Source of the DNA: Roseovarius sp. Pro17
Lineage (GTDB): Bacteria; Pseudomonadota; Alphaproteobacteria; Rhodobacterales; Rhodobacteraceae
Direction: 5' to 3'
NCBI RefSeq assembly: GCF_035599575.1
Contig: NZ_CP141179.1
Coordinates: 1,798,001-1,862,000, forward strand
DNA length: 64,000 nt
Below are positions 19,115 through 35,455 of the stretch, in pieces. Made by a program: the position numbers and the translations under genes. Within the stretch, counting starts at the first letter, position 1; every line of letters starts with the position of its first letter. The notes below the pieces were generated by a model. The model was not told the DNA's origin and searched no databases. It saw only the letters and a list, made by a program, of their open reading frames with translations.

Positions 19115-20083
19115 TTGCTGAGTGGAATAATCTGGGTGGTCGCTGCGGCGATTTTTGTGGCCACGGTTCTGCCGCTGACCAATAGCGTGCGGTGGTGGAT
19201 CAGGATGTGGGAGTTTCCGCGCCTTCACATCGCTGTTCTGGCAATTGTGCTGCTGCTGATTGTCCTGCCACTCGATCTGTTCTTCAAGGGTCTACTGATC
19301 ACCGGCCTGCTGGCCTGCACTGTCTATCATGCGATCAGGATATTTCCCTACACTCCATGGGCCACCAAGGAGGTTGTGAAAGTCGAAAATGCGCCGCAGG
19401 ACGAGCGGATCAGCCTGCTGTCCGCGAACGTGCTGATGGAGAATACACGTCACGCCGACCTGATCCGCATCATCGAGCGTGAGGACCCGGACGTGCTGTT
19501 CCTGATGGAGGCGGATGAGGTCTGGCACACGGCGTTGAAGGAAACCCTGAAGGGCTACTCCTTCGTCAAGGCGCATCCTATGGACAACCACTATGGGCTG
19601 ATCTTTGCGACGCGGCTGCAAACGATCAGTTGCGAGTTGCTGTTTCTGTCGGGCGACGACACCCCCACGGTCAAGGCCGTGCTGCAAGGCCCGAGCGGCA
19701 GTAAATTCAACTTTATCGGCGTGCACCCCCGCCCCCCGGTTCCGGGGAACGATACCGCATCGCGCGACAAGGAAATCAAGCGCGCCGCCCAGATCACCGG
19801 AGCATCCGATCTGGCGACCGTGTGCATGGGTGATTTCAACGACGTGGCGTGGTCCTGGACGACACGCCGATTCAAGCGATACGGCAACTACCGGGACCCG
19901 CGCGTCGGGCGCGGAATGCTGTCCAGTTTCGATGCACGGCACTGGTTCCTGCGATTTCCCATCGACCAGATGTTTCTGACCGAGGGCATCGGTTTGGTGT
20001 CGTTCGAACGGCTCGAAGCATTCGGCTCCGATCATTTCCCGATCAAGTCCGTCGTCACCCTGCACGATCAGAAAGACGGTTAA
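19115..20083 (+). CDS. Membrane-anchored endonuclease/exonuclease/phosphatase-family protein
   Basis: About 322 residues. Two to three hydrophobic segments in the first about 90 residues (IIWVVAAAIFVATVLPL; LHIAVLAIVLLLIVLPLDLFF), then an EEP catalytic domain: SLLSANVLMEN, DPDVLFLMEAD, HPRPP, MGDFNDVAWS and GSDHFPIKS with the metal and catalytic Asp/Asn/His residues. The domain would face the periplasm. The TTG at 19115 has GGAG eight bases upstream and gives a sensible N-terminus; the frame is open further upstream without a good start. The stop overlaps the next ATG (TAAATG). Confidence 0.82.
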   Translation: MLSGIIWVVAAAIFVATVLPLTNSVRWWIRMWEFPRLHIAVLAIVLLLIVLPLDLFFKGLLITGLLACTVYHAIRIFPYTPWATKEVVKVENAPQDERISLLSANVLMENTRHADLIRIIEREDPDVLFLMEADEVWHTALKETLKGYSFVKAHPMDNHYGLIFATRLQTISCELLFLSGDDTPTVKAVLQGPSGSKFNFIGVHPRPPVPGNDTASRDKEIKRAAQITGASDLATVCMGDFNDVAWSWTTRRFKRYGNYRDPRVGRGMLSSFDARHWFLRFPIDQMFLTEGIGLVSFERLEAFGSDHFPIKSVVTLHDQKDG

Positions 20084-21287
20084 ATGGCCCCGCCCCCCCC
20101 CCCCAAAGTTATGAGATCACCGGTGCAGACGCCACCAAATCGGCCAGACTTGCGCAGGTTCTGGAACGGCTGGCCATTCCGATCTACGGCATGTTCATCA
20201 TTCTGCTGCTGCAAGGGCTGGTCTGGGCCAGCGATTTCCTGATCCCGGTCACGGCGGCGATCTTGGGTTATTTCATTCTCAACCGTCCGCGCCGGTGGCT
20301 GCAACGCATCGGCGTTTCTGCGGTCTTTTCAGCCGCGATATTCACAGGCCTTCTCACGATCGTCATTGCGCTGTTGCTGGTTCAACTCAGCACACCGGCG
20401 GCTCAGTTCATCGAGATGATCTGCCCTCACTGATGCAGCAAATCAAGAGCAAGCTTTCGTCCTCGGGCGGCGCCCTTGAGGCCATCAAGGACGCCACAGT
20501 CGCCGTCGAAGAGATCGTCGCCGAAACGGATCAGGAAACCGTCTCGGTCGAGATCGTATCGAACACCGGGGTCGCAGCGACACTGTTCAGCATGGCGCCG
20601 GGGTTCCTCAGCCGCATCATGTTTTCGTTGATCCTGCTGTTTTTTCTCGTGGCATCGGGCGACATGTTCCTGACCAAGACTGTCCAGAGCTTTGATCGGT
20701 TCGCCGATAAACGCCGCGCAGTCGACGTCTTTCATTCAATCGAGGAGCGGCTGGGGTATTATCTGGGCGGGATAACGTTCATCAACCTCGGCCTCTGGGG
20801 CGCGGTTGCCATCGCGATGGCCATTTGAGGGATGCCCAGCGCGGTTGTCTTTGGCGTGATGGCGTTCGGGCTGAACTTTGTTCCCTATCTCGGCGGCCTT
20901 CTGGGCGCGGCCATCGCCGCTGCCGTTGCGTTTGTCAGTCTGAATGGCGTCTGGCCTGCGGCGGGCGTGTTCGCAGCCTACATCGCCCTCACGGCTGTCG
21001 AGGGGCAGCTTATCACTCCCTTGCTGATCTCACGCAGGATGCGGCTAAACACGACGGTCGTGTTGTTGACCGTCGCATTTTTTGCGTGGATCTGGTCGTT
21101 CATGGGGATGATCGTCGCGTTGCCGATTCTGATCGTCGTCAAGGTCGCCTGCGACGAGACGACATCACTGCACACAATCGGGCGTTTTCTAGGCGACATC
21201 GATGATGCGAAACCGCGCTCCGATACGTTGACCGACACTAAGTCGACGGGACACGCAGATAAAACGCCGGGCGGGCGCGGGGTCTGA
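20084..21287 (+). pseudogene. AI-2E-family permease gene, disrupted three times
   Basis: The conceptual product of about 400 residues is a typical AI-2E (PerM/YdiK) multi-span protein: VLERLAIPIYGMFIILLLQGLVW, then LPSLMQQIKSKL, FNFVPYLGG-like GLNFVPYLGGLLGA, and VEGQLITPLLISRRMRLN. Lesions: a 12-C run directly after the ATG puts the start out of frame (13 C would restore it), a one-base shift near 20416 (AAQFIEM to DDLPSLM), and an in-frame TGA at 20826-20828 where Trp would fit (AMAI-stop-GMPS). Immediately downstream of the EEP gene and probably once co-transcribed. Confidence 0.8.
20093..20104 (+). repeat. Homopolymer tract of 12 C
   Basis: Twelve consecutive C bases lie seven bases after the A of the AI-2E ATG. 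Slippage by one base would switch the start codon in and out of frame with the rest of the gene. Because the gene has two further lesions, this may be simple decay or a sequencing length error rather than phase variation. Confidence 0.7.
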
Positions 21288-24115: not shown

Positions 24116-27100
24116 TCAGGGTGCTTCGCCGGGCGCAAGGTCCGCCGGTATGGGCTGCCCCATATCAATGGGCATATCATTCGCCATGATCGGCCGACGG
24201 TCGGGAAGCTCCATTTCCAGATGAAATCCGACGCTATCCTCGGCGCGGCGAAACAGTTGGGGCGTGGCGAATGGCAGGTGTTCCAGCGCGTCCTCGAATT
24301 CTTCGGCGGTGACAGGACGGTTGCGAAACTCGGTCAGCGCATTGTCCGTCACGATCGGATAGAGCCGCAGCGCCGCTCTGCCCTGCTGTTGGTCGGTGAA
24401 ATCCAGCGCCACGGCGAGGCCGTAGGGAGGCACGCCGCGCTTGGAAAAGCGGCCGGGCGTGTTCCAGACAAAGTTGCCGATGTTATAGATCACGGCGCAA
24501 TCCTTGATCATCTCGGCGTCCTGCACGATGTGGGCGCCGTGTCCGATGATCAGGTCGGCCCCGGCATCTGCCAGTGCGGCAGCCATATCGCGCTGCTTTT
24601 GTGTGACGTCCGCGTAATCGACCCCCCAATGGGGAAAGACGACAAAGGTAGGATCGGGCAAAGTATCCCGCAATTCCGAAATCTGATCGGCAATGCGCTG
24701 CGCGCTCAGCTTGCCAATCCCCGCGATACGACGACCTGCATACCAGTGGTATTCATTCTCATAGCGCCCCCGGCGCTCGAACCCGCCAAACACGACGAGC
24801 GAGCGTTCCACTCCGTTCACCGCGAACCTGTGAACAAAGGGACGCGCCGCCGCCTCACCATTGCCGCCCGCACCAAAACTGGCGATGCCTGCGCTGTGCA
24901 GCCTTGCCTGTGTTTCGGACAGTCCCGCAGTCCCGCAGTCCAGCATATGATTGTTGGCAAGTGTGACCGCGCTGATTTTTGCGTCTGTCAGCGCTGTGAC
25001 AGTGGGGGCTGCATCGCACCAGCCCAGATAATTCTTGCGGCCCTCCAGCGCCGGGTCGGGCGTGGCGGCAAGTGGCACTTCGAGATTGGCGATGGTCAAG
25101 TCGGCCGAGTCCAACAACCCCTTGAGCCCAGTCAGACAATAGCCAGGGCCGTGTGCGGCAAGGATGTCTTGCAGGCCCGCAACGCGGGGGCGGTGCATAT
25201 AGGATTCCCCAAACCCGACATCGCCGACGAAAAGCGCGGTCAACCTATCCGTCGCAAGCGTCATTGCGCGCGCAGGCATCTCAGGCTCAGGCACCTCGTT
25301 GGGCAGGATTGCGTCAACCGGCAACCCCAGCGTTTCCGACGCGCGCACTAACGATGCGGGATCGTCCAGCGATGCGGTGCGGGGTCCGACGATCCGTGAT
25401 ATCGACTGCGCGGCCTGCTCTTGCGTGTCCGAGCCGTCGGATGGCGCCAGAACCGCAAAGTCGACATATTCAACGCCAAGACCACGCCGCACCATTTGCG
25501 CGGGCGTGATTTCGATGATGCCGATCTCAATCCGGCTGTCGCGGCTAAGGGTTTCGCCCGTCTCGCTGCGCAGGGTCGCGCGGCGTGCCTTGCTGCGCGT
25601 GCGGCTGAACACAGCGCCCAGCGGCCTGTTGGCGCGGGTTGCAACCGCCTCGATATCGCGGCGCATTTGGCGCGTCTGACCGGGCGCGCCAAGTAACACG
25701 ACGACGGGAATGCGCGCGGGCGTCCCGATGGGATAGAGCATGTCGAGCATCGCCTCGGTCACCTTGTGCGCGTCGTCGCCCATCACATGAAGGTGTGGAT
25801 TTACGCCGGGCCGACTGTTGACTTCGCATATGGCGCCGCCGGTTTCGGTGTAGGGGCGCTCCAGATCGGTGGTTATGAAATCGACGCCGCAGACATCAAG
25901 GCCTATGACCGCCGCCGCCCTCTCGGCTACGTCGCGGATCGACGGATGGACCTTGTCCGTGACGTCAAAAGGCTCGCCCCCGCGCGAGAGGTTGGATTCC
26001 TGGCGCAGCAGAATCTTGGTGCCGTTCGTCGGAACAGAGTCTAGCGTCAGGCCCTGATCGTTCAGCAGTTCCGCCGCCTCGTCGTCAAGCTGGATCGACT
26101 TCATCACCGATGTACGCCCGCGCGTGGCAGGCACACGCTCGGGGCGCGTATTTTCCAGCGTGACCAGCTCCTGCACGGTCGAAGTGCCATCCCCGCGCAC
26201 TTGGGCCGGGCTTCTGTGCATGGCCGAGACGTAGCGGCCATTCACGACCAAAAGGCGGTATTCCTCGCCCGGAATGACGTGTTCCAGAATGACCCTGCGG
26301 GAGTATTTCTGCGCGTGATGAAAGGCCCGCAAAAGCCGCTCTTCGCTAGGAACGCCGACGGTGACGCCATTGCCCATATTGCCGTCCAGCGGTTTTACGA
26401 CCAACGGATAACCAATAGCGCGCGCCTGCTGGACGGCCGCCTTTTCGCTGCGCGCCATGCGCTGCCGCGCAACCGGCAGCCCTGCCTCGTTCAGCATATC
26501 GCGCGTCAGACGCTTGTCACGGGATATGGCCCGGCTGACCGATGCTGTATTCGTCGATTCCGACCCTTTCAAAAGGTGGGAATACCGCCCCGACCCCAGT
26601 TGAAGGTATTGCGATCGATGCAGGGGGGACCAAGGAATGGACCGTGTCTCCGCCAAGGCGGCGAGTTCCAGCGCGTCCGCTGCGGGGGTTTGCTGGTTCG
26701 TCAATTTCAGGAATCGCTCCAGCCGCTTGAAAAATATCGCGTTCAGCTTTGTGCGCGAGACACCCTTGATCATGGCTGCGGTCACGGCGACCGCCATCTC
26801 GGCCGCCGCACGCCCGATCTCTTGGCTGCCGACCTCGAAAATGGCGCGCCCCTGCGTCTGAAGATCGGGCACCGGGTCCGCATCTGTCACGTCTGTCGTG
26901 TCTGTCTCAGCCGGGCTGCTGCCCTCGCGCCAGGCACAGAATTTGACCGGCCAATAGGCACAGCGCTGCGTGATAAGCGCAAGCATTTCGACCACGGCGG
27001 CAGCGGGCACAGGCTGGCGCGCACGCATCAGCCGTCGCCAGGCGGGGCAATCGGTCACCCTGCCCTGTGGCGCGTCAAATATCTGTGGAAGGCGGCGAAT

Positions 27101-27211
27101 GTCCTTGCGGGTCAGAAAAACACCTGCCGCACCCTCTAGCCGCAGTTCCAGCGCCAGACGGCGTGTATGGATATTGCCGCGTCGCCACAGCTTGTGCGAT
27201 TTGATTTCCAT
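24116..27211 (-). CDS. Cyanophycin-synthetase-like ATP-grasp protein fused to a CapA-type phosphoesterase
   Basis: 1031 residues, in order: CphA N-domain (WRRGNIHTRRLALELRL, residues 9-25; AIFEVGSQEIGRAAAEMAV near 123); ATP-grasp (about 205-490) with QLGSGRYSHLLKGSESTNTA, PLVVKPLDGNMGNGV near 269 and the metal/nucleotide strand CEVNSRPGVNPHLH near 462; a Mur-ligase-like remnant (about 500-630) where the CphA P-loop GTNGKT reads GAPGQT and RRGLGFDRCD reads RRGLGVEYVD; then CapA/PGA_cap (about 655-985) with FVGDVGFGE, NLEVPL, LANNHMLDCG, HWGVDY and IIGHGAHIVQ. The ATP-grasp should ligate amino acids; the second ligase site looks dead. CapA-type domains belong to poly-gamma-glutamate systems. 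Last gene of the unit after the type I exporter. Confidence 0.85.
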   Translation of the reverse strand: MEIKSHKLWRRGNIHTRRLALELRLEGAAGVFLTRKDIRRLPQIFDAPQGRVTDCPAWRRLMRARQPVPAAAVVEMLALITQRCAYWPVKFCAWREGSSPAETDTTDVTDADPVPDLQTQGRAIFEVGSQEIGRAAAEMAVAVTAAMIKGVSRTKLNAIFFKRLERFLKLTNQQTPAADALELAALAETRSIPWSPLHRSQYLQLGSGRYSHLLKGSESTNTASVSRAISRDKRLTRDMLNEAGLPVARQRMARSEKAAVQQARAIGYPLVVKPLDGNMGNGVTVGVPSEERLLRAFHHAQKYSRRVILEHVIPGEEYRLLVVNGRYVSAMHRSPAQVRGDGTSTVQELVTLENTRPERVPATRGRTSVMKSIQLDDEAAELLNDQGLTLDSVPTNGTKILLRQESNLSRGGEPFDVTDKVHPSIRDVAERAAAVIGLDVCGVDFITTDLERPYTETGGAICEVNSRPGVNPHLHVMGDDAHKVTEAMLDMLYPIGTPARIPVVVLLGAPGQTRQMRRDIEAVATRANRPLGAVFSRTRSKARRATLRSETGETLSRDSRIEIGIIEITPAQMVRRGLGVEYVDFAVLAPSDGSDTQEQAAQSISRIVGPRTASLDDPASLVRASETLGLPVDAILPNEVPEPEMPARAMTLATDRLTALFVGDVGFGESYMHRPRVAGLQDILAAHGPGYCLTGLKGLLDSADLTIANLEVPLAATPDPALEGRKNYLGWCDAAPTVTALTDAKISAVTLANNHMLDCGTAGLSETQARLHSAGIASFGAGGNGEAAARPFVHRFAVNGVERSLVVFGGFERRGRYENEYHWYAGRRIAGIGKLSAQRIADQISELRDTLPDPTFVVFPHWGVDYADVTQKQRDMAAALADAGADLIIGHGAHIVQDAEMIKDCAVIYNIGNFVWNTPGRFSKRGVPPYGLAVALDFTDQQQGRAALRLYPIVTDNALTEFRNRPVTAEEFEDALEHLPFATPQLFRRAEDSVGFHLEMELPDRRPIMANDMPIDMGQPIPADLAPGEAP

Positions 27212-27255
27212 CTCTGTCTAGTCCCTTCCCTCAAGTCCCGGCGCGGTGCGCCCGC

Positions 27256-28593
27256 TCACCCCTCGCGCAGCCCGCGCGACAAAAATCGCGTGATCGGCGT
27301 CGAAATATAATCCATGACCGAGCGCGCGCCGGTGCTGATCGCCACCTCGGCACTCATCCCCGGTTGCAGCGGAACGGACCCCCGCGCCGCATCGTCGCGG
27401 TCCAGCTCGATCCGGGCGCTGTAATAGCCGGCGCCCGTGGCTGGATCGATGATCCGATCGGCAGAGACGGTGGTAACAATGCCAGTCAGCGGTGCCTCGC
27501 TGCGTCGGTTAAGAGCGGCCAGCCACACTTGCGCGGGCAGTCCCGGCGTCACCTGATCAATGTCCAAGGGATCAATCGTCGCCAGCACAACCAGCTTGTC
27601 ACTGACCGGCACCACGTCGAGCAGGGTCTGCCCCGCCGCGATCACGCCGCCCACGGTATGCACGTTCAGCCCCGTGACAATCCCTGCCACGGGCGAACGG
27701 ATTTCTGTGCGTCCCACCACATCCTGCGCCGCGTTCAACTGTTGGCCGAGTTCGTAAGCCAGCGCGCGGGCGCGTTGCAGTTGCTCGGTCACTTCCGATG
27801 CCATCTCGGCCTGAAGCTCGGCAAAGCGCAATTCAGCCTGCTGGATGTTCTGACGCGCCGTGCCGATGGCGGCGCGATAACCGGAAATACCGCCCTCCAG
27901 TTCGGCCTTGTCACGCTGAAGCCCCAATAGCCGGGCCCGGTTCGTCAGATCCATGGCCAGCAGCGCCTCGACATCAGCCAGCTCTTCGGAAATCAGCTCA
28001 ACCCGCTGCTCAGAGGACGCGATCTGCCCCTCCAACCCGGTGATCTCGCTGGTGAGGCCATCCTTTATCCGCTCGGTGATTGAGGCGCGCTCGGCCAGCA
28101 GATCGCGGCGGTTTTGCAAGATGCCCCGCTGTCCGTCCATCGCGGCGCGCACCGCCTGATCGCCGAACTTTTTCGTCAGCTCGTCGGGGAACGTAATCTC
28201 GTCTGCGCCGGACTGCTCGGCGATCAACCGGGACTCGGCGGCGCGGGCCTCAAAATACTGGGCCTGAATTTCATTTCGGCTAGACGCCGAGACAGTGTTT
28301 TGAAGCCGGATTAAAACCTGTCCGGTTTCCACCCGGTCGCCTTCGCGCACTAATATCTGATCGACGATGCCGCCTTCGAGGTGCTGCACATTGCGCACGT
28401 TCGTATCCACATTGACGACACCGGGCGCGAGGACGGCCCCCTCAATCGGCGCGGCGGAGGCCCAGACATAGAAGCTGCCGAAAAAGAGCGCGATAATGGC
28501 AAATCCGATCAACCCCAGACCACGCCCAAAGGGGTATTTATCGTCCATCTGGGTGCGTGCCCAATCGGGTATGTCGGCGACAGGCGTGCTCAT
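27256..28593 (-). CDS. HlyD-family type I secretion adaptor
   Basis: A 445-residue membrane-fusion protein: one N-terminal span (LGLIGFAIIALFFGSFYVWASA, about residues 25-46), a biotinyl-lipoyl-like start (EGAVLAPGVVNVDTNVRNVQHLEGGIVDQILVREGDRVETGQ), a long coiled-coil hairpin (about 110-290) and the closing beta-barrel (TEIRSPVAGIVTGLNVHTVGGVI). It bridges the inner-membrane ABC transporter to an outer-membrane TolC protein, which is not encoded here. Its ATG overlaps the ABC gene stop by 4 nt. Confidence 0.94.
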   Translation of the reverse strand: MSTPVADIPDWARTQMDDKYPFGRGLGLIGFAIIALFFGSFYVWASAAPIEGAVLAPGVVNVDTNVRNVQHLEGGIVDQILVREGDRVETGQVLIRLQNTVSASSRNEIQAQYFEARAAESRLIAEQSGADEITFPDELTKKFGDQAVRAAMDGQRGILQNRRDLLAERASITERIKDGLTSEITGLEGQIASSEQRVELISEELADVEALLAMDLTNRARLLGLQRDKAELEGGISGYRAAIGTARQNIQQAELRFAELQAEMASEVTEQLQRARALAYELGQQLNAAQDVVGRTEIRSPVAGIVTGLNVHTVGGVIAAGQTLLDVVPVSDKLVVLATIDPLDIDQVTPGLPAQVWLAALNRRSEAPLTGIVTTVSADRIIDPATGAGYYSARIELDRDDAARGSVPLQPGMSAEVAISTGARSVMDYISTPITRFLSRGLREG

Positions 28594-30302
28594 GTGACGC
28601 TCCTCAGGTGGTCGCGGGCCTTTTGCGCAGCCTGTTTGCCAAGGTTCTGCGTGACCTCATGCGACTTGCCGCCAAGGATCAGAAAACAATCGGCCAGCCG
28701 GGTGATCTGTGACGAATGGATCGACTGGGTGATGACGATGGACGTCCCGCTCGCTTTCAGCGATTTCAGCGCGTTTTCCATTATGCGCCGGGCGGCGGCG
28801 TCCAGATTGGCGGATGGTTCGTCCAGCACGATCAGCCGCGGGCGGCCATAAAACGTGCGGGCAAGGGAAATGCGCTTGCGCTCGCTACCTGACATTCCGA
28901 ATGTGTCGCCGGTAATCTGCGTGTCGTAGCCATCGGGCAGATGAACGATCATGTCGTGGATTCCCACCAGCTTGGCCGCGGCGACGACCTCTTCCATGTC
29001 GCCCTCGCCCATGCGGGCGATGTTTTCGCGCATGGTTCCGCTGAACAGCTCAGTGTGCTGGGGCATGTAGCCGATCAGATCGGCGCGCACGGCGTCGGGC
29101 AGACGTGCGATAGTTACATCGCCCAACCGGATCTGGCCGTGGCGCGGCTGCAACAGGCCGACCAGCAGGCGCGACAGCGTCGACTTGCCCGTGCCTGCGG
29201 TACCGTTGACCACCAGCATCTGCCCCGGCTCCAGCGACAGCGACAGGCGACGATAGAGGTCCGTGCGCTGCCCCGGATGGCGAAAGTTCACCTCGTGCAG
29301 CACCATGGGCGCATCGATTGTGCCGGGCAACAGGGACGTGCGCGCGACATCCTCGTCAGTCAGGCGCTCTTTCACGGCATCATAGGCGGTTTTTGTTTCG
29401 CGCAGATTTCGGTAATTGCGCACTGCGCGCTCGGCCAGCGCATAGCCAAAGCCCGACATGATCCGCGCCGCGAATATCCCGCCCAGCGTCAGCGAGCCCA
29501 GCACCACCAGCCAGATACCGACCGCGATCATCGCGATGCGCAGGAACCGTCCCACGCCATGCATCATCGTGTTGAGCAATACCTGACGGCCGGCGATGCG
29601 CTCGTGCTCTTCCAGCCGTGAGCTCGAAGTGCGCTGCCAACGCTGGGTCAGGATCGGCGCCATTGACAGCGCGCCGACGCTTTCGCGGTTCTGTTCGGCG
29701 GACAGCACCAGCGCGTTGGCCTCCTTGTAGGCGTCACTGGAGGCGCGGCGCGGTTCGCGCGTCAGAACGTCATTGATAACCCCCAACACCAGCAGCAGCA
29801 GCAAACTGCCCAGACCGATGACGCCCAGCAAGGGGTGGATAAGGAAAATGCCAATGAAAAAGAGTGGTGCGAACATCACATCAAGCCATGACAGCGCCGG
29901 ACCGGTGACGAAATGGCGCAGCTTACTGACATCGGCCAAGGCGCGGCTGATCTGCGTCGCCTGCTCGGGCGCGCGCCCGTCCGCGAGTCCGCGATGCACC
30001 ATGCGCGGGCCGAACTGGCGTTCGATCCAGATGCCCCAGCGCACCATCATGCGGCGGCGAACCACCTCCAGCGCGAGGCCGCAGGCTATAGCCACAACCA
30101 CAGCGATGGTCAGCATGATCAGCGTCTCGATACTGCGGCTGGCAGGCACCCGGTCCAGCACCTGTAGCAGATAGAGGGGCGAGGCGAATTTGAGCAGGTT
30201 GAACACCGCAGTAAAGATCACGACACAGGCCAATCCAAGGCGTGACGCACGCCATGCGCTGGTGACCGCGGTGACGCGTCCCGCTTTTCTGCGTTTTGCC
30301 AT
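28590..30302 (-). CDS. Type I secretion ABC transporter (PrtD/LapB-like permease-ATPase)
   Basis: 570 residues: membrane domain (about 1-310) and ATPase domain (about 330-560) with Walker A NGTAGTGKSTLSRLL, an unusual signature GMSGSERKRISLARTF in place of LSGGQ, and Walker B RLIVLDEPSANLD. There is no N-terminal C39 peptidase domain, so double-glycine leaders would not be cleaved by it. Family members export unfolded proteins or peptides through a HlyD-TolC channel. GGAG precedes the ATG. Coupled to the adaptor; the P-loop/transposase-domain gene lies 27 nt upstream. Confidence 0.93.
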   Translation of the reverse strand: MAKRRKAGRVTAVTSAWRASRLGLACVVIFTAVFNLLKFASPLYLLQVLDRVPASRSIETLIMLTIAVVVAIACGLALEVVRRRMMVRWGIWIERQFGPRMVHRGLADGRAPEQATQISRALADVSKLRHFVTGPALSWLDVMFAPLFFIGIFLIHPLLGVIGLGSLLLLLVLGVINDVLTREPRRASSDAYKEANALVLSAEQNRESVGALSMAPILTQRWQRTSSSRLEEHERIAGRQVLLNTMMHGVGRFLRIAMIAVGIWLVVLGSLTLGGIFAARIMSGFGYALAERAVRNYRNLRETKTAYDAVKERLTDEDVARTSLLPGTIDAPMVLHEVNFRHPGQRTDLYRRLSLSLEPGQMLVVNGTAGTGKSTLSRLLVGLLQPRHGQIRLGDVTIARLPDAVRADLIGYMPQHTELFSGTMRENIARMGEGDMEEVVAAAKLVGIHDMIVHLPDGYDTQITGDTFGMSGSERKRISLARTFYGRPRLIVLDEPSANLDAAARRIMENALKSLKASGTSIVITQSIHSSQITRLADCFLILGGKSHEVTQNLGKQAAQKARDHLRSVT

Positions 30303-30329
30303 TTCTTGCTCCGCCCTTCTCTATCGCTC

Positions 30330-32084
30330 TCAGTTCAGGCCGCTTCGGTCCGAGATCGCTCCAATCGCGTCAATCCTGTCCTCACCGTAGCCCGCGCCGG
30401 GATAGGCCGGTTCGTCGGCAAATCCGCCGTCTTCGTCGAAATAGCGTTCATTGACCGCTGCGATGGTGGCAGACAATGGCCGCTCGGGTGCCTGCACGGT
30501 GCGCATGAGCGGCAAGCCTTGCCGACGGGCGGTGGCGATCTGCGCGGCAAGGTCCGCCGTCAGATCGTCCAGCGCGCCGGGTCGCAGGCGAATGCCTGTC
30601 AGCATCTCCCGCACCAGCGTGGACACTGCCGCATCAAAGGCATCGATTTCAGCTTCGATCACGGCAAAGACTGCGGCGACGGGGGCTGTCACCTTTTGCG
30701 TGAAGGACGGGTCATAATGATTGCATCTCAGCTTGGGGACGCGCAGGTCGATCCGGCCAAAATCGGTATGCCATTCGTGCAATCTAAATCCGTTGCGCCA
30801 GTCGCGCCGCCCGGACGAGCGCGATCCGAAGGGCGCAGCGCACAGCGCATCTACCTCCAACTGCATCACATGATAGGCTGCGCGTTCCAGCAGGTCATGC
30901 GCCAGCGACGTGCCGGTCGCCCCGGCCCCGCCCGCCTGCGACGAGGCGCTGCCGATCGCCACCAGATTGCTCAGCATCACGTTAGACGGCATCGCCATGC
31001 GCGCCAGCCGCGCCAGAAATGGATGCACAATTGAAATTCCAGCCTCGACAGCGCGGGAGCGCATCACGGGCACCATCGCGCCCTCCTGCAAATCCCATGG
31101 GGAATAGACGCGCAGTCCGGTGGCATCCTCGGCCTCGCGCACACCCAACGGCGAGCGGCCCAGCCGGCCACTGATTCCCAACACGTTATGCTGCGCCTCT
31201 CGCAGCACATCGACGCCGTATTTCGCGCCCATCGCATCATAGGCCGCAAAGACCGAACCGATGGTAACATCCAGTATCTTGCGGCTGCGAATTAATTGCG
31301 CAGTTTCAAGCTGTTGAAGCCCGTCGGCAATTTCAATCACTGCCACATCGCAGCCCTGTGCGGCAGCGTGGTTCATTAGCCGATAGGTCGCGCGCTCGAT
31401 TTCGGGGACACTGACCAGATACGTGCTGGAATAGCCCGCATCGGTAAAATCCAGTGACACATCAGCGCCCGCGTCACGCACGATCCACATGTCGCCACCC
31501 GATCCAGTGCCGGTGATCTTCATCGCCGCCACCTTGAACCCCAGCCGTTTAAAGCCGCGCATCAGCGACGTTGCGGTCAAAGTCTTGCCCGCGTTCATCG
31601 ACGTGCCAAGCGACAGTACCGCCGGGATATCTGGCCTCTGTTCGGACGCATCGACGCGGAATTGCATGGTATTCAGACGCTCGCCATCCGCGCCAACGAC
31701 CAAACCGACCGGAGTGATCTGCGTCGGCGGACGCAGACCTATGCGGCGCGAAATTTCAATCGAGGCAAGGCCCCCCGCGGCCACCAGATCGCAAGGCGAA
31801 AGGTCAGGACCGATGCGCGATTCATACTGATCGGGCGCATAGCGGTTGCCATAACAGACGATAATCTCGTCGCCCGGAAACATGTAGGCGCGCCGACCGT
31901 CTGTCAGCTCCAGCTTTTCCTGTTTGCCCAGTTCATCGACCCGCGCCAGCACGATGTCGCCGGGTCGTGGCTGGACATCATCGCCGGTGATAAGTCCCCG
32001 CATCGCGCTGACTGGCACCCTGCGCGTGCTGAAAGCGCGTTTTACCTTGGCCAACCGCGGTCTGCTCAGAATTGCATAAGCCAT
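30330..32084 (-). CDS. P-loop NTPase (DUF1611-like) carrying an IS256/Mutator transposase N-terminal domain
   Basis: 584 residues from ATG 32084 (GAGG upstream; a longer frame to 32120 has no better site). Residues about 1-145: beta-rich region. About 153-360: P-loop domain with Walker A LSLGTSMNAGKTLTATSL and CDVAVIEIADGL as probable Walker B strand, like DUF1611/MobB-type enzymes. About 394-465: AYHVMQLEVDALCAAPFGSRS, then WRNGFRLHEWHTDFGRIDLRVPKLR, which is the N-terminal DNA-binding region of IS256-family transposases. The DDE catalytic core is absent; the last about 120 residues are helical and unfamiliar. First large gene of the exporter unit. Confidence 0.75.
   Translation of the reverse strand: MAYAILSRPRLAKVKRAFSTRRVPVSAMRGLITGDDVQPRPGDIVLARVDELGKQEKLELTDGRRAYMFPGDEIIVCYGNRYAPDQYESRIGPDLSPCDLVAAGGLASIEISRRIGLRPPTQITPVGLVVGADGERLNTMQFRVDASEQRPDIPAVLSLGTSMNAGKTLTATSLMRGFKRLGFKVAAMKITGTGSGGDMWIVRDAGADVSLDFTDAGYSSTYLVSVPEIERATYRLMNHAAAQGCDVAVIEIADGLQQLETAQLIRSRKILDVTIGSVFAAYDAMGAKYGVDVLREAQHNVLGISGRLGRSPLGVREAEDATGLRVYSPWDLQEGAMVPVMRSRAVEAGISIVHPFLARLARMAMPSNVMLSNLVAIGSASSQAGGAGATGTSLAHDLLERAAYHVMQLEVDALCAAPFGSRSSGRRDWRNGFRLHEWHTDFGRIDLRVPKLRCNHYDPSFTQKVTAPVAAVFAVIEAEIDAFDAAVSTLVREMLTGIRLRPGALDDLTADLAAQIATARRQGLPLMRTVQAPERPLSATIAAVNERYFDEDGGFADEPAYPGAGYGEDRIDAIGAISDRSGLN
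30690..30905 (-). other. Transposase-derived domain within the P-loop protein gene
   Basis: This part of the gene encodes the stretch that reads like the start of Mutator-type transposases: a VMQxEVDALCxAxxGxRS helix followed by RNGxR, then a short strand pair DFGRIDLRVPKLR and a Y-x-P-x-F turn. The frame stays open into and out of it, and no inverted repeats or target duplication stand at its edges, so it looks like a captured domain and not a fresh insertion. Confidence 0.7.
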
Positions 32085-32175
32085 GAAATGCCCTCGTTGA
32101 TTTACGCTATTTTGCCGCACGTCCGATCTGCCGTGGCGGGTCGGGCGGTCGCTAAGTTTTGTTGGATCTCAGAGG

Positions 32176-32298
32176 TCAGGTCGGGTGCGGCTCTTGTTGA
32201 TCTTGAGGGGCACTCGATAGGAAGCGCAGCCTTTCGGGTGCGTCGGCGTTGGAACAGGTAACAGTCATGGTAGTCTCACTTTTCGTCTCAAATTTCAT
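32176..32298 (-). CDS. 40-residue peptide, candidate exported or modified precursor
   Basis: ATG 32298 follows GCAGGAGAGTGACG, a strong ribosome-binding site. The product starts MKFETKSETTMTVTCSNADA and ends in a Gln/Pro/His-rich tail (PQDQQEPHPT). One Cys, several Thr/Ser and Glu, no hydrophobic helix, no double-glycine motif. It is the first cistron before the P-loop gene (91 nt gap) in the exporter/ATP-grasp unit. I infer it may be the substrate of that system; nothing in the sequence proves it. It could also be a leader peptide or a chance frame. Confidence 0.5.
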   Translation of the reverse strand: MKFETKSETTMTVTCSNADAPERLRFLSSAPQDQQEPHPT

Positions 32299-32770
32299 CG
32301 TCACTCTCCTGCGGTTAGCGAGGGCGACCCGCCGACCGCCCGGCACCCTGAACAAAACAATCATTCAGCAGAGGCGCGCTGCAAAAAAAATGGCGCACCT
32401 CCATTGCCGCAACTGCTCGTTGAAGAACCTCCAATCTCTACAACCGGCAATTTGACTTTAAATTTCGGGGGGATGGACCCACACTAACGCATGTTAGGAT
32501 CGGTGCGCGTCGACTCTGGACTACAGGCAAATCTCCGCCTGCGGTTCGGCAACCCGTCGCCTGCCCGATGGAAATAATGCTGCGCTCAGAGATGCTTGGG
32601 GCATGATGCCCGCACGAATGCAGCCGGCGTGTCAGCCCCACTCGGACGCGGCGGACTGAGTACTGCCCTGTGGCCGTCTGGCCTTGCAGTCACGACAAAC
32701 TTCGCCGGTATCGGGCTGACGACCAACAACACACACTCTAGCAAATGAACATCGCAGGACTCGCAGCTTC
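32299..32770. other. Intergenic control region between divergent CphA-like units
   Basis: About 470 bases between the peptide gene (minus) and the CphA-like gene (plus). No supported open frame. It should hold both promoters. A GCGACCCGCCGACCGCCC stretch near 32328 recurs in related inverted form near 32138, flanking the peptide gene. No clear -35/-10 pair or operator could be fixed by eye. Confidence 0.4.
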
Positions 32771-34276
32771 ATGTCTCAGATTGTCACAAACAGCCCGCGT
32801 ATTCTGCGCAGACACCTCCTGCTCGGTCAGAACGTTTTTCACTCCCGATCAGTGCTTATGGCGGATATTGATCCCGGTGGGCTAAGCGGATTGACAAGAC
32901 GCAAGCTGCGTACCAATTCAGCGGGCGGATTTCAGAGGTTTTTCGATGCCAAGCATCTGCCGCACGAGCGCAACGACCTGACCAATGGCGCACCCGCGCC
33001 GAGCGCCTGTGACGACCTGGCGATTTCTCACACATTGCTGGACGCCGTGCTCGCGATCGAAACGCGGGCGTTGTCGATCATGGGCCAGAGCCGCGAAATC
33101 GGCTACAGCGCCACGGATACCAGGGCAGATGGCACTATGGTGCTGATTTGGGCCTCCACGCCGATGTCGCGAGACGCGCTGAACGTTGCGCTGATCGGGC
33201 TGGCCGAACTTGCCGGCGTGCCTATTCCGGGAGCTGAGTCCTTTGCAGATGAGCAGGAACGCTTGATGTCGCGTGCTGCGCGCAGGCGGCTGGACGCACA
33301 AACCCTCGATCTGCAAGCGGCGGCAGCCGCCAAGGGCATCGCGCAGCGCATTTCGGACGGGCAACTGATCCTCGGAGAAGGCGCGCGCCAGTGCCGGCCA
33401 CACGACGTCGCACCACCCACGACCGCGAGCGATCAGCATCCGGCCCGAATCATGCGCCCCACGCCAGAGGCGGCCGAAACGGCAGACACAGGCATTGCTG
33501 ACGGCGATCTTTCGCCCGCACCGTACCTGCGCCTTGTTCCACGCGAGGTCGCAGACCCTCAGAATGCTCAGGCGGTTCTGGAACGCATCTATCCGGACCC
33601 GCAAGATGCCGTTATTCCGTCGCTGGTTTTCGCAGGCGACCGCGCCACCGGGTCAGCAGCCCAGCAAGCTGGGGTGTTGTTGGAGGAGGCCGGGTTTTGC
33701 GTTGGCGTGGCGCTGAAACGGGGTGTCGTGCTGGCTGGCGCGCATCTTGAGCCGCCGGAGGGCCGTATCACCCGCGCGCCTGCGATGCTGCTGCGCGATC
33801 CCTCGCTAGAGGCGATAGTAACGGCGCTGTCCCTGCGGCGCATCGTCAACTATGGCCTCGGCTTTGCGCGCTGCGACGGCGCTGCACTGCAATTGGATCC
33901 CACCACGGATCGATCCGTCAGCGAGCGCGGCATCGACGTGCTGCTGCGCGCCTGTTGTGGCCCCTTCACGCTGGACAGCCGTCATCCTGTCCGCCGGATG
34001 CTGACCGAAAAGATCGGCCCGGGCCGGGTCATTCTGGTATCCCAAACGCCGGACGATCCCGAAGTGATCAATCATGTGGCTGCGGGTGGGCTGGCCGCCA
34101 CGCGTCAATGGGGCGCGAGCGGACCGCAAGTCAGGCTGCTGCGCCGCGACGGCGTTCTGGCCAGCGCACCACTGGAGAGCCGTGCCCACACGCGCGAACG
34201 TCTGATCTACGCCGGCATACATGCCTTCGCACTGGTGCAGGCGGTGGGCCTGTTGAAAACTGGAACCGCTGCATAG
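32771..34276 (+). CDS. Cyanophycin-synthetase-like protein lacking ATP-grasp, with degenerate Mur-ligase region
   Basis: 501 residues, with CphA blocks in CphA order. Residues about 100-150 resemble the N-domain beta-alpha unit (GTMVLIWASTPMSRDALNVALIGLAEL). About 165-215 (AARRRLDAQTLDLQAAAAAKGIAQRISDGQLILGEGARQCR) matches the linker that in CphA leads into ATP-grasp, but the ATP-grasp is missing. About 265-450 is Mur-ligase-like: LVFAGDRATGSAAQQAGVLLEEAGFCVGVAL where the P-loop GTNGKTTT should be, LLRDPSLEAIV, and YGLGFARCDGAALQL. No ATP site survives, so a structural or regulatory partner of the ATP-grasp protein is likely. AGGA precedes the ATG. Confidence 0.7.
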   Translation: MSQIVTNSPRILRRHLLLGQNVFHSRSVLMADIDPGGLSGLTRRKLRTNSAGGFQRFFDAKHLPHERNDLTNGAPAPSACDDLAISHTLLDAVLAIETRALSIMGQSREIGYSATDTRADGTMVLIWASTPMSRDALNVALIGLAELAGVPIPGAESFADEQERLMSRAARRRLDAQTLDLQAAAAAKGIAQRISDGQLILGEGARQCRPHDVAPPTTASDQHPARIMRPTPEAAETADTGIADGDLSPAPYLRLVPREVADPQNAQAVLERIYPDPQDAVIPSLVFAGDRATGSAAQQAGVLLEEAGFCVGVALKRGVVLAGAHLEPPEGRITRAPAMLLRDPSLEAIVTALSLRRIVNYGLGFARCDGAALQLDPTTDRSVSERGIDVLLRACCGPFTLDSRHPVRRMLTEKIGPGRVILVSQTPDDPEVINHVAAGGLAATRQWGASGPQVRLLRRDGVLASAPLESRAHTRERLIYAGIHAFALVQAVGLLKTGTAA

Positions 34277-34315: not shown

Positions 34316-35212
34316 CTAAAATCCCATCGCTTCGATCATTTCGTTGGCGGTCAACATGCCGCGCCCGCTGTGGCCGACATCGTCGGCATAGACCAACTCC
34401 CAGTTAAAGGGCCAGCCATGCTGGGCTGCGGCACGCTTGGCCGCCTCAAACGTGCGCTGTCCACGATCAACCCGGTTGTCGCCCTGCCGCACAGCCTGCT
34501 GATTCATCGTCAGATCCTTGGCTCCGGTATCTTCTGATCCCAAAAAGATCGTGACGGGCGCGGCTAGATAAGCGCGCAACCATTGCTCGGCCTGATCCTC
34601 GGGAATGCCACCAAATCCATAGGGCGCGGCCTCGTCCTCGGTCGGCAGAACGTAGGTCGACGGGTTGGCGATGATGATGCGCTCGACATTATCCGGCAGG
34701 TCATAGGCCGCGACCCGCGACAGGAACTGCCCACCCGCCGAATGCCCAAAAAGATAGCTCTGGGCGTCTGGCCGCCCTTCCTGAGCGCGCGCCCAATCGA
34801 CCAGATCGTCGACGACATCCGTGGTCCAGCTGTCTTCGGGCAGCATCTTGCCGTCATGCACCAGGCCGCCGCGGTGATAGCTCCAGTTCGGGAAACGGTC
34901 GTCGTCAAACAGCGGGGCGTAGACGACGAAACACCCCCGATCTGCCAGATCGCGCGCCGATTTCAGATAGGATTGCGCCCCGCGCCCGTTGCCGTGAAAC
35001 ACCATGAGGATCGAAGGCGAGGCGCAGTTTTGCGGACGATAGGTGAACACCTGAAATTCGCGCCCCGCCACATTGGCCTGTACGCGCGCAAGTTCCCCGG
35101 TCCCGGCCTCTTGAGCCGCGACAGTCAACGGAACCGCTCCCGCGACCAGCAGCGCCGTCGCGAGGCCCGTCTTCGGATGTGCAGGGCAACCCGGATTTGA
35201 CCATATGAACAT
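34316..35212 (-). CDS. Secreted alpha/beta hydrolase (esterase or depolymerase-like)
   Basis: 298 residues from ATG 35212, preceded by AAAGGACG; the first about 35 residues form a signal peptide (hydrophobic GLATALLVAGAVPLTVAAQ). Oxyanion region LMVFHGNGRGAQSY near residue 70, nucleophile elbow YLFGHSAGGQFLSR near 150, and VGHSGRGM near the C-terminus with a plausible catalytic His. This resembles periplasmic polyhydroxybutyrate-depolymerase-like or feruloyl-type esterases. It converges on the CphA-like gene, 39 nt away; whether it cleaves that system's product is speculative. Confidence 0.8.
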   Translation of the reverse strand: MFIWSNPGCPAHPKTGLATALLVAGAVPLTVAAQEAGTGELARVQANVAGREFQVFTYRPQNCASPSILMVFHGNGRGAQSYLKSARDLADRGCFVVYAPLFDDDRFPNWSYHRGGLVHDGKMLPEDSWTTDVVDDLVDWARAQEGRPDAQSYLFGHSAGGQFLSRVAAYDLPDNVERIIIANPSTYVLPTEDEAAPYGFGGIPEDQAEQWLRAYLAAPVTIFLGSEDTGAKDLTMNQQAVRQGDNRVDRGQRTFEAAKRAAAQHGWPFNWELVYADDVGHSGRGMLTANEMIEAMGF

Positions 35213-35455
35213 GTCGGTCGTCCTTTTGTTCGCGATCACAGCGCTTGGCATCACAGCATTTAAATGAGTGTGGCAATCAGATCTGCGGATTTCAAGACGC
35301 AAGAGCGGTCACGCTTTTGCGGGCTGGCTGGCCCCGCCGCTGCGATGAACCTGCCCCGATGAACCGTCAACAGACACGGACATTGCGGCGCGACCCGCGG
35401 TGCATGAGCCCGATATCTGTTCGCCCGAAATCTATCACATGTCGTCCGGTTGCCG

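Follow-up and report, generated by a model that had tools for sequence, protein, structure and literature searches.

A stretch of 64,000 nucleotides of Roseovarius sp. Pro17 (NZ_CP141179.1, positions 1,798,001-1,862,000), called here the window and used for all positions below, contains a gene cluster that may direct the synthesis, export and processing of an amino-acid-based product. Its central gene encodes LIG, a ligase derived from cyanophycin synthetase (CphA) and fused to a CapA domain. It is accompanied by genes of a type I exporter, consisting of an ATP-binding cassette (ABC) protein and an HlyD-type adaptor, and by genes of a P-loop ATPase (PLOOP), a putative pseudo-ligase (P3) and an alpha/beta hydrolase (AB34). 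The features are the following (aa, amino acids; ORF, open reading frame).

24116..27211, minus strand: LIG, CphA-derived ATP-grasp ligase fused to CapA, 1031 aa
25727..26611, minus strand: ATP-grasp (G) domain of LIG, residues 201-495
25448..25726, minus strand: remnant of the CphA Mur-like (M) domain of LIG, residues 496-588, P-loop lysine lost (GAPGQTRQ)
24461..25234, minus strand: CapA (PGA_cap) domain of LIG, residues 660-917; PGA_cap 167.8 bits, cut-off 27
27256..28593, minus strand: HlyD-type periplasmic adaptor of a type I exporter; TIGR01843 355.9 bits, cut-off 208.65
28590..30302, minus strand: ABC exporter, PrtD-like; TIGR01842 416.9 bits, under its cut-off of 510
30330..32084, minus strand: PLOOP; the ORF opens with GTG at 32120, likely start ATG at 32084
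30660..30908, minus strand: IS256/Mutator transposase N-terminal piece within PLOOP
32176..32298, minus strand: 40-codon ORF with a ribosome-binding site; no homologue found, membership unsupported
32771..34276, plus strand: P3, putative pseudo-ligase, 501 aa; CphA-like N domain and Mur-like domain, ATP-grasp domain wholly missing
34316..35302, minus strand: AB34, alpha/beta hydrolase of the poly(Asp) hydrolase-1/LpqC family; signal-peptide-like N-terminus, likely start ATG at 35212

On the minus strand the order of transcription is AB34, the 40-codon ORF, PLOOP, ABC, HlyD and LIG, with P3 oppositely directed between AB34 and the 40-codon ORF. The ABC and HlyD genes overlap by 4 bases, and gaps of 27 and 44 bases separate PLOOP from ABC and HlyD from LIG, respectively. 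An earlier sequence-only reading of this DNA had placed the ATP-grasp/CapA protein, HlyD, the ABC exporter, the P-loop/transposase-domain protein and a divergent CphA-like protein correctly; its list of members holds for these main genes, but it missed the conserved AB34 just outside its interval and counted in a 40-residue peptide that has no support as a member. Both components of a type I secretion pair, exporter and adaptor, are present, and the ABC protein matches PrtD best, though under the cut-off. A Pfam scan of window proteins matched no N-terminal peptidase domain on the ABC exporter, and among the seven window proteins scanned in this way there was no match to a CapB-type Mur ligase, CapC or a cyanophycinase; no protein substrate gene for the exporter was recognised among the proteins scanned. 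In a simple hydropathy scan LIG, P3 and PLOOP showed no membrane segment, and AB34 showed an N-terminal one.

Residues 123-588 of LIG match the CphA model with 390 bits, below the cut-off of 877, and match CphA structures too, while the dipeptide synthetase model gives 187 bits. The key residues of CphA1, as set out in PMC9427784, were placed on LIG through the spacing in its alignments to CphA structures. Positions equivalent to K220, K261, R309, R323, N394, S396, D431 and E450 are kept, so that the ATP, Mg and chain-carboxylate positions of CphA1 are retained (K261, R309, D431 and E450). Three residues are lost, namely H267 (Met in LIG), R458 (Asn) and K499, the P-loop lysine of the Mur domain (Gln). 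K499 is present in all five annotated CphA controls and in no row of the 30 cluster-related G domains, two of which are gapped at this place; the 30 rows, which include the domain remnants P0126 and P0128 and the degenerate second ligase of locus L027, have R309 in 29 cases, R323 in 24 and N394 in 24. Among the CphA controls R458 is found in five of five and H267 in four of five, the other having Gln267, and both N-acetylglutaminylglutamine synthetases compared have Gln267, His396, Arg454 and Ala458. The HxxEH priming motif, which PMC9262961 assigns to the N domain of about 80% of CphA1s, is absent from the LIG sequence; the CphA of the same genome has HMVEH. The latter protein is encoded by a canonical cphA (a 911-codon frame, G000:C1:2715909-2718468, locus L168) that adjoins a cyanophycinase-like Peptidase_S51 gene, and it keeps H267, R458 and K499. 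Judged by its sequence, LIG should be competent for the ATP-grasp reaction and should not perform the Mur reaction, and the residues compared do not fix the monomer.

The motifs of the CapA domain of LIG are intact (GDVGFG, NLE, ANNH..D, HWG and GHGAH). Of 3257 LIG homologues the best 120 were considered; PGA_cap is given for each of the first 44, ATP-grasp domains as well for 43 of these, and Mur domains for none. In a G-domain tree built by a quick method, a single group of the CapA-fused ligases has a Shimodaira-Hasegawa-like approximate likelihood ratio test (SH-aLRT) value of only 59. LIG homologues of about 1770 aa in L013, L014 and L015 carry two tandem ATP-grasp modules before CapA, and these modules are separate in the tree.

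P3 gives a weak CphA match of 40.8 bits. Its C-terminal half matches the Mur region of CphA, the Walker lysine being absent from this part, and its N-terminal half matches the N domain of full-length relatives. A homologue search yielded eight proteins, one of which is the P3 of the window. The ATP-grasp domain is also missing from P0125 (501 aa, 89% identity), P0127 (482 aa, 50%) and P0129 (462 aa, 41%), P0126 and P0128 are without the ATP-binding half of it, and P0130 and P0131 have the domain; a Paracoccus homologue of 709 aa, whose gene occupies the position of P3 in locus L010, also has it. The full-length P3-like ligases form one group of seven rows with an SH-aLRT value of 99 in the same quick tree. 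The retention of P3-like proteins without ATP-grasp at 41-89% identity points to a conserved, working pseudo-ligase, one for which intermediate stages of domain loss are visible. The first proposal, that P3 is the second half of a split CphA-like ligase, was rejected: P3 has lost the ATP-grasp domain, as have homologues with as little as 41% identity, and no Walker lysine remains in the Mur-like part of P3.

PLOOP is built of an N-terminal beta-rich domain, for which no fold match was found, a SIMIBI/dethiobiotin-synthetase-like P-loop ATPase domain (about residues 150-373) and a transposase-derived domain (about 390-510). The latter accounts for a Transposase_mut match of 32.6 bits (cut-off 21) over profile positions 24-106 of 379. 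The IS256 family model NF033543 scores 16 bits on PLOOP against a cut-off of 150, no catalytic transposase domain was matched in the protein, and the Pfam family DUF1611 (PF07755) remains under its gathering score. The "transposase" of the earlier reading is a SIMIBI-type P-loop ATPase retaining an IS256 N-terminal piece, a transposase fragment kept as a domain of a P-loop protein; databases label proteins of this type "transposase". In plasmid records, the annotation found in the wider core of P-loop ATPase, ABC exporter and hydrolase is "dethiobiotin synthase" or "DUF1611". The open-access literature on DUF1611, judged by its titles, contained nothing bearing on the cluster.

AB34 matches structures of PahZ1 (1.2e-34 and 3.1e-30) and LpqC (2.2e-34) in the PDB. 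Its homology to PahZ1 spans 237 residues, and the aligned segments GHSAGGQF, GSEDTG and VGHSGRGM presumably carry the Ser, Asp and His of a catalytic triad. A hydrophobic, signal-like N-terminal segment is present in AB34 and in many homologues, indicating that the enzyme is likely exported. Within the host genome AB34 matches only itself. For the PahZ1 of Pedobacter, PMC4456602 describes cleavage of the beta-amide bonds that join Asp units, with a preference for L-Asp-D-Asp.

Conservation of the cluster was assessed by a PLOOP profile search of genome contigs, from which the best 80 of 514 loci were taken. Neighbours were drawn from our own ORF calls, within 4 kb of PLOOP for ABC and hydrolase, 8 kb for HlyD and 10 kb for ATP-grasp and CapA. 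Among these 80 loci, ABC was found in 62, an AB34-like hydrolase in 44, HlyD in 24, ATP-grasp in 18 and CapA in 17. The gene set is most complete in the 14 loci where PLOOP carries the transposase piece (ABC 14, HlyD 14, hydrolase 13, ATP-grasp 12, CapA 12). Two classes can be distinguished: class B, that of the window, has a long PLOOP or HlyD, usually with ligase and CapA. In class A, PLOOP is short (about 350-400 aa) and comes with ABC and frequently a hydrolase; some of these loci also have a porin (Porin_O_P or OprB), two-component systems or an S8 peptidase. The order AB34, PLOOP, ABC, HlyD and LIG on one strand is common to several Paracoccus loci, and in Palleronia (L024) AB34 lies on the opposite strand. 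A Microvirga plasmid has the cluster genes again, with LIG named "CapA family protein", PLOOP named "transposase" and a 303-aa hypothetical protein at the place of AB34.

Of 394 family genomes, three (G000, G066 and G336) match LIG in its CapA part (E <= 1e-60), and the long PLOOP (E < 1e-150) occurs in the identical three, each time in one cluster with it (the window, L150 and L178). By random draw such a coincidence would have a chance of 1e-7, uncorrected for relatedness and with two or three candidates scored per genome. The remaining 25 family genomes with LIG matches have the ligase part only. Within the genus, a strong PLOOP match (E < 1e-50) was obtained in 12 of 84 genomes, two of them with the long form, so that the system is patchy. 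Homologues that are scattered and never clustered, which would have told against the sequence-only proposal, were not what emerged, and its idea of one functional unit that makes and exports an amino-acid-based product gains support from the 14-locus gene set and from the co-occurrence of CapA and long PLOOP in the same three of 394 genomes. In the open-access literature, with subscription journals and preprints outside its coverage, searches on exact terms gave no paper that joins cyanophycin synthetase with CapA, ATP-grasp and HlyD, with poly-gamma-glutamate and type I secretion, or with "CapA family protein", and no such cluster was seen in passages of a paper on cyanophycin gene clusters (PMC10206079).

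The locus may be read as a unit dedicated to making, exporting and processing an oligomer or polymer of amide-linked amino acids, a reading in which our confidence is evenly poised. The gene set, its clustering, the homologies and the losses of domains and residues are shown by the data; that the product is a polymer, which monomer it contains, what CapA, P3 and PLOOP do and in which order the steps run are inferred, in the following scheme. In the cytoplasm, the ATP-grasp domain of LIG would extend an amino-acid chain with ATP; LIG having no working Mur domain, the arginine side chains of cyanophycin would not be added, and the chain would be unbranched or differently built. The fused CapA might act on this chain by release, transfer or epimerisation, with P3 as a non-catalytic partner in chain binding or assembly. 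The PLOOP ATPase might ready the product or couple it to export, and the PrtD-like ABC protein and HlyD, together with a TolC-type channel encoded elsewhere, would secrete it, after which the exported PahZ1-like AB34 could trim it outside the cell. If true, CphA-type chemistry has moved from internal storage to secretion, the enzyme losing one of its catalytic halves and becoming fused to CapA, and the cluster is a genetic handle on the role of polyaspartate hydrolases in nature.

A narrower version, in which the product is a secreted unbranched chain resembling poly-aspartate (beta-linked, perhaps mixed L/D), is rather doubtful. CphA would have shed its arginine-adding half, the remainder would make the chain with P3 as partner, CapA would serve as an epimerase or releasing transferase, and the PahZ1-like enzyme would trim outside. 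The preference of Pedobacter PahZ1 for L-Asp-D-Asp (PMC4456602) fits a chain of mixed chirality, and the epimerase MslH is related to CapA. If true, the polyaspartate hydrolase family would thereby gain a named natural substrate.

Several observations weigh against a polymer-making unit or against aspartate as its monomer. R323 and N394 are also kept in the N-acetylglutaminylglutamine synthetases, so their presence does not prove that LIG uses aspartate, and LIG has lost R458, the residue by which CphA1 binds the alpha-carboxylate of aspartate. AB34 scores LpqC as high as PahZ1, and for a class A hydrolase, which matches these three structures too, LpqC scores highest. Among the best 80 loci, the 24 of the HlyD class include ATP-grasp in 16, CapA in 15 and hydrolase in 16, some contigs being cut, and among the 56 non-HlyD loci ABC is present in 38, hydrolase in 28 and ATP-grasp and CapA in two each, which indicates a core module independent of this ligase. 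The scarcity of the ligase in class A likewise suggests that the core is not tied to a ligase. CapA occurs without a ligase in the locus of three relatives (L018, which is L178, L023 and L035); in L178, that of G336, CapA and PLOOP are 3.4 kb apart within a PLOOP-ABC-HlyD-CapA-AB34 cluster that has no ligase match. In Microvirga L019 and L021, ABC, HlyD and hydrolase accompany PLOOP, and no ligase or CapA lies within 10 kb.

The possible, though less probable, alternative is a small-molecule conjugate, in which PLOOP, ABC and hydrolase would be a general exporter of an acid or ester metabolite, to which ligase and CapA add one or a few amino acids. It draws on the counts just given, since PLOOP, ABC and hydrolase without the ligase are the commoner set. 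Together, the P-loop ATPase, the exporter and the hydrolase are found again in several phyla, in most cases with no ligase. In 15 regions fetched from further relatives, 13 of them new and of class A, ABC lies beside PLOOP in all 15, hydrolase in 13 (not in L154 and L158) and S8 peptidase in four; of the 13 new short-PLOOP loci all have ABC, 11 a hydrolase and none a ligase or CapA. Moreover, ATP-grasp relatives named N-acetylglutaminylglutamine synthetase make a dipeptide, judged by name. However, the CphA model outscores the dipeptide synthetase model on LIG (390 against 187 bits), PahZ1 and the CapA of poly-gamma-glutamate act on polymers, and ligase modules are paired or in tandem in L010 and L013-L015.

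A capsule of the poly-gamma-glutamate type, with CapA as guide and the ligase supplying a surface-held glutamate polymer, is improbable: the PGA_cap domain with its intact motifs would suit it, but CapB-type and CapC matches are missing among the seven scanned proteins and CapA is fused to a protein without membrane segments. Equally little weight is given to a module that maintains the surface or outer membrane, in connection with lipids or stress, and in which polymer making is incidental; the porins, two-component systems and S8 peptidases near ligase-less loci, and the RNA polymerase sigma factor of L121, would be in line with it, but it leaves the CphA-like ligases and CapA of the HlyD class unexplained.

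A ribosomally synthesised and post-translationally modified peptide is very improbable; here the ligase and CapA, which is related to the lasso-peptide epimerase MslH, would modify the 40-residue peptide before its export. The ORF at 32176-32298 is real, with a good ribosome-binding site (GCAGGAGAGTGACG) before its ATG, and MslH is matched with 49 bits, far below the cut-off of 700. Yet tblastn of the peptide against 88 loci gave a best E of 0.1, the closest strains (72-74% in PLOOP; 89% in P3) being outside the DNA searched, and nothing related was found by tblastn upstream of PLOOP in 18 relatives, one represented by 423 bases only; the exporter also has no matched peptidase domain. Several of these relatives have some short ORF after a purine-rich stretch upstream of PLOOP, as expected by chance. 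Loading of the product onto this peptide, as once suggested, thus finds no homologue to build on. An ordinary cyanophycin locus is hardly credible, since LIG has lost the Mur P-loop lysine, H267 and R458, no cyanophycinase was matched among the seven scanned proteins and a normal cphA with a cyanophycinase-like neighbour lies elsewhere in the genome, even though some LIG homologues bear the database name "cyanophycin synthetase".

Further genes were seen near PLOOP in other genomes. In a Bdellovibrionales locus (L054:3056-19841), PLOOP has in its vicinity two separate CphA-like ATP-grasp genes, a gene for a Mur ligase in which both Mur domains are present, CapA, ABC, hydrolases, a carbon-nitrogen hydrolase and an aminotransferase. 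An S8 peptidase is encoded near short PLOOP, ABC and hydrolase in L121, L155, L157, L161 and L162, the first of which also has the RNA polymerase sigma factor and a two-component system. Family F7 is found in 17 class A loci (L047, L052, L058 and others), mostly after the hydrolase, and the single member scanned, from L047, matches Porin_O_P; family F11 lies near the cluster in six loci (L013:7789-8763 and five more), and the single member scanned matches LPG_synthase_C. In the window itself, three successive plus-strand ORFs in shifted frames (19849-21287) match AI-2E_transport profile positions 5-79, 97-201 and 219-326, two of them under the cut-off; this looks like a transporter gene broken by frameshifts, or like sequence errors.

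Compared with known systems, PLOOP resembles the SIMIBI ATPases of the DUF1611, dethiobiotin synthetase and HypB types (2g0t, 3of5, 3vx3) and differs by the added transposase piece and an N-terminal domain without a fold match. With the IS256/Mutator transposase (6xg8) it shares the N-terminal segment (E 2.8e-10 with the family profile), which in PLOOP is only a retained domain of a cluster protein without a matched catalytic domain. AB34 is homologous to PahZ1 (PDB 9o7u, 6ve6; PMC4456602), with aligned Ser/Asp/His segments and a likely export signal, and is as close to LpqC (3d0k). The exporter and adaptor genes, with their 4-base overlap, are shared with type I secretion of the PrtD/HlyD kind, although no protein substrate gene was recognised among the proteins scanned. 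The PGA_cap domain with intact motifs is common to LIG, the CapA of poly-gamma-glutamate systems and MslH (8gq9); here, however, it is fused to a ligase without membrane segments, and CapB and CapC partners were not matched in the cluster. From CphA1 (PDB 7lgn, 7lgm, 7lg5, 7wac) LIG has the N domain region and the ATP-grasp G domain with the ATP, Mg and chain-carboxylate positions, but it is without a working Mur domain, H267 and R458 and carries the fused CapA instead; an exporter and a PahZ1-like hydrolase adjoin it, whereas the cyanophycinase-like gene stands elsewhere, beside the canonical cphA.

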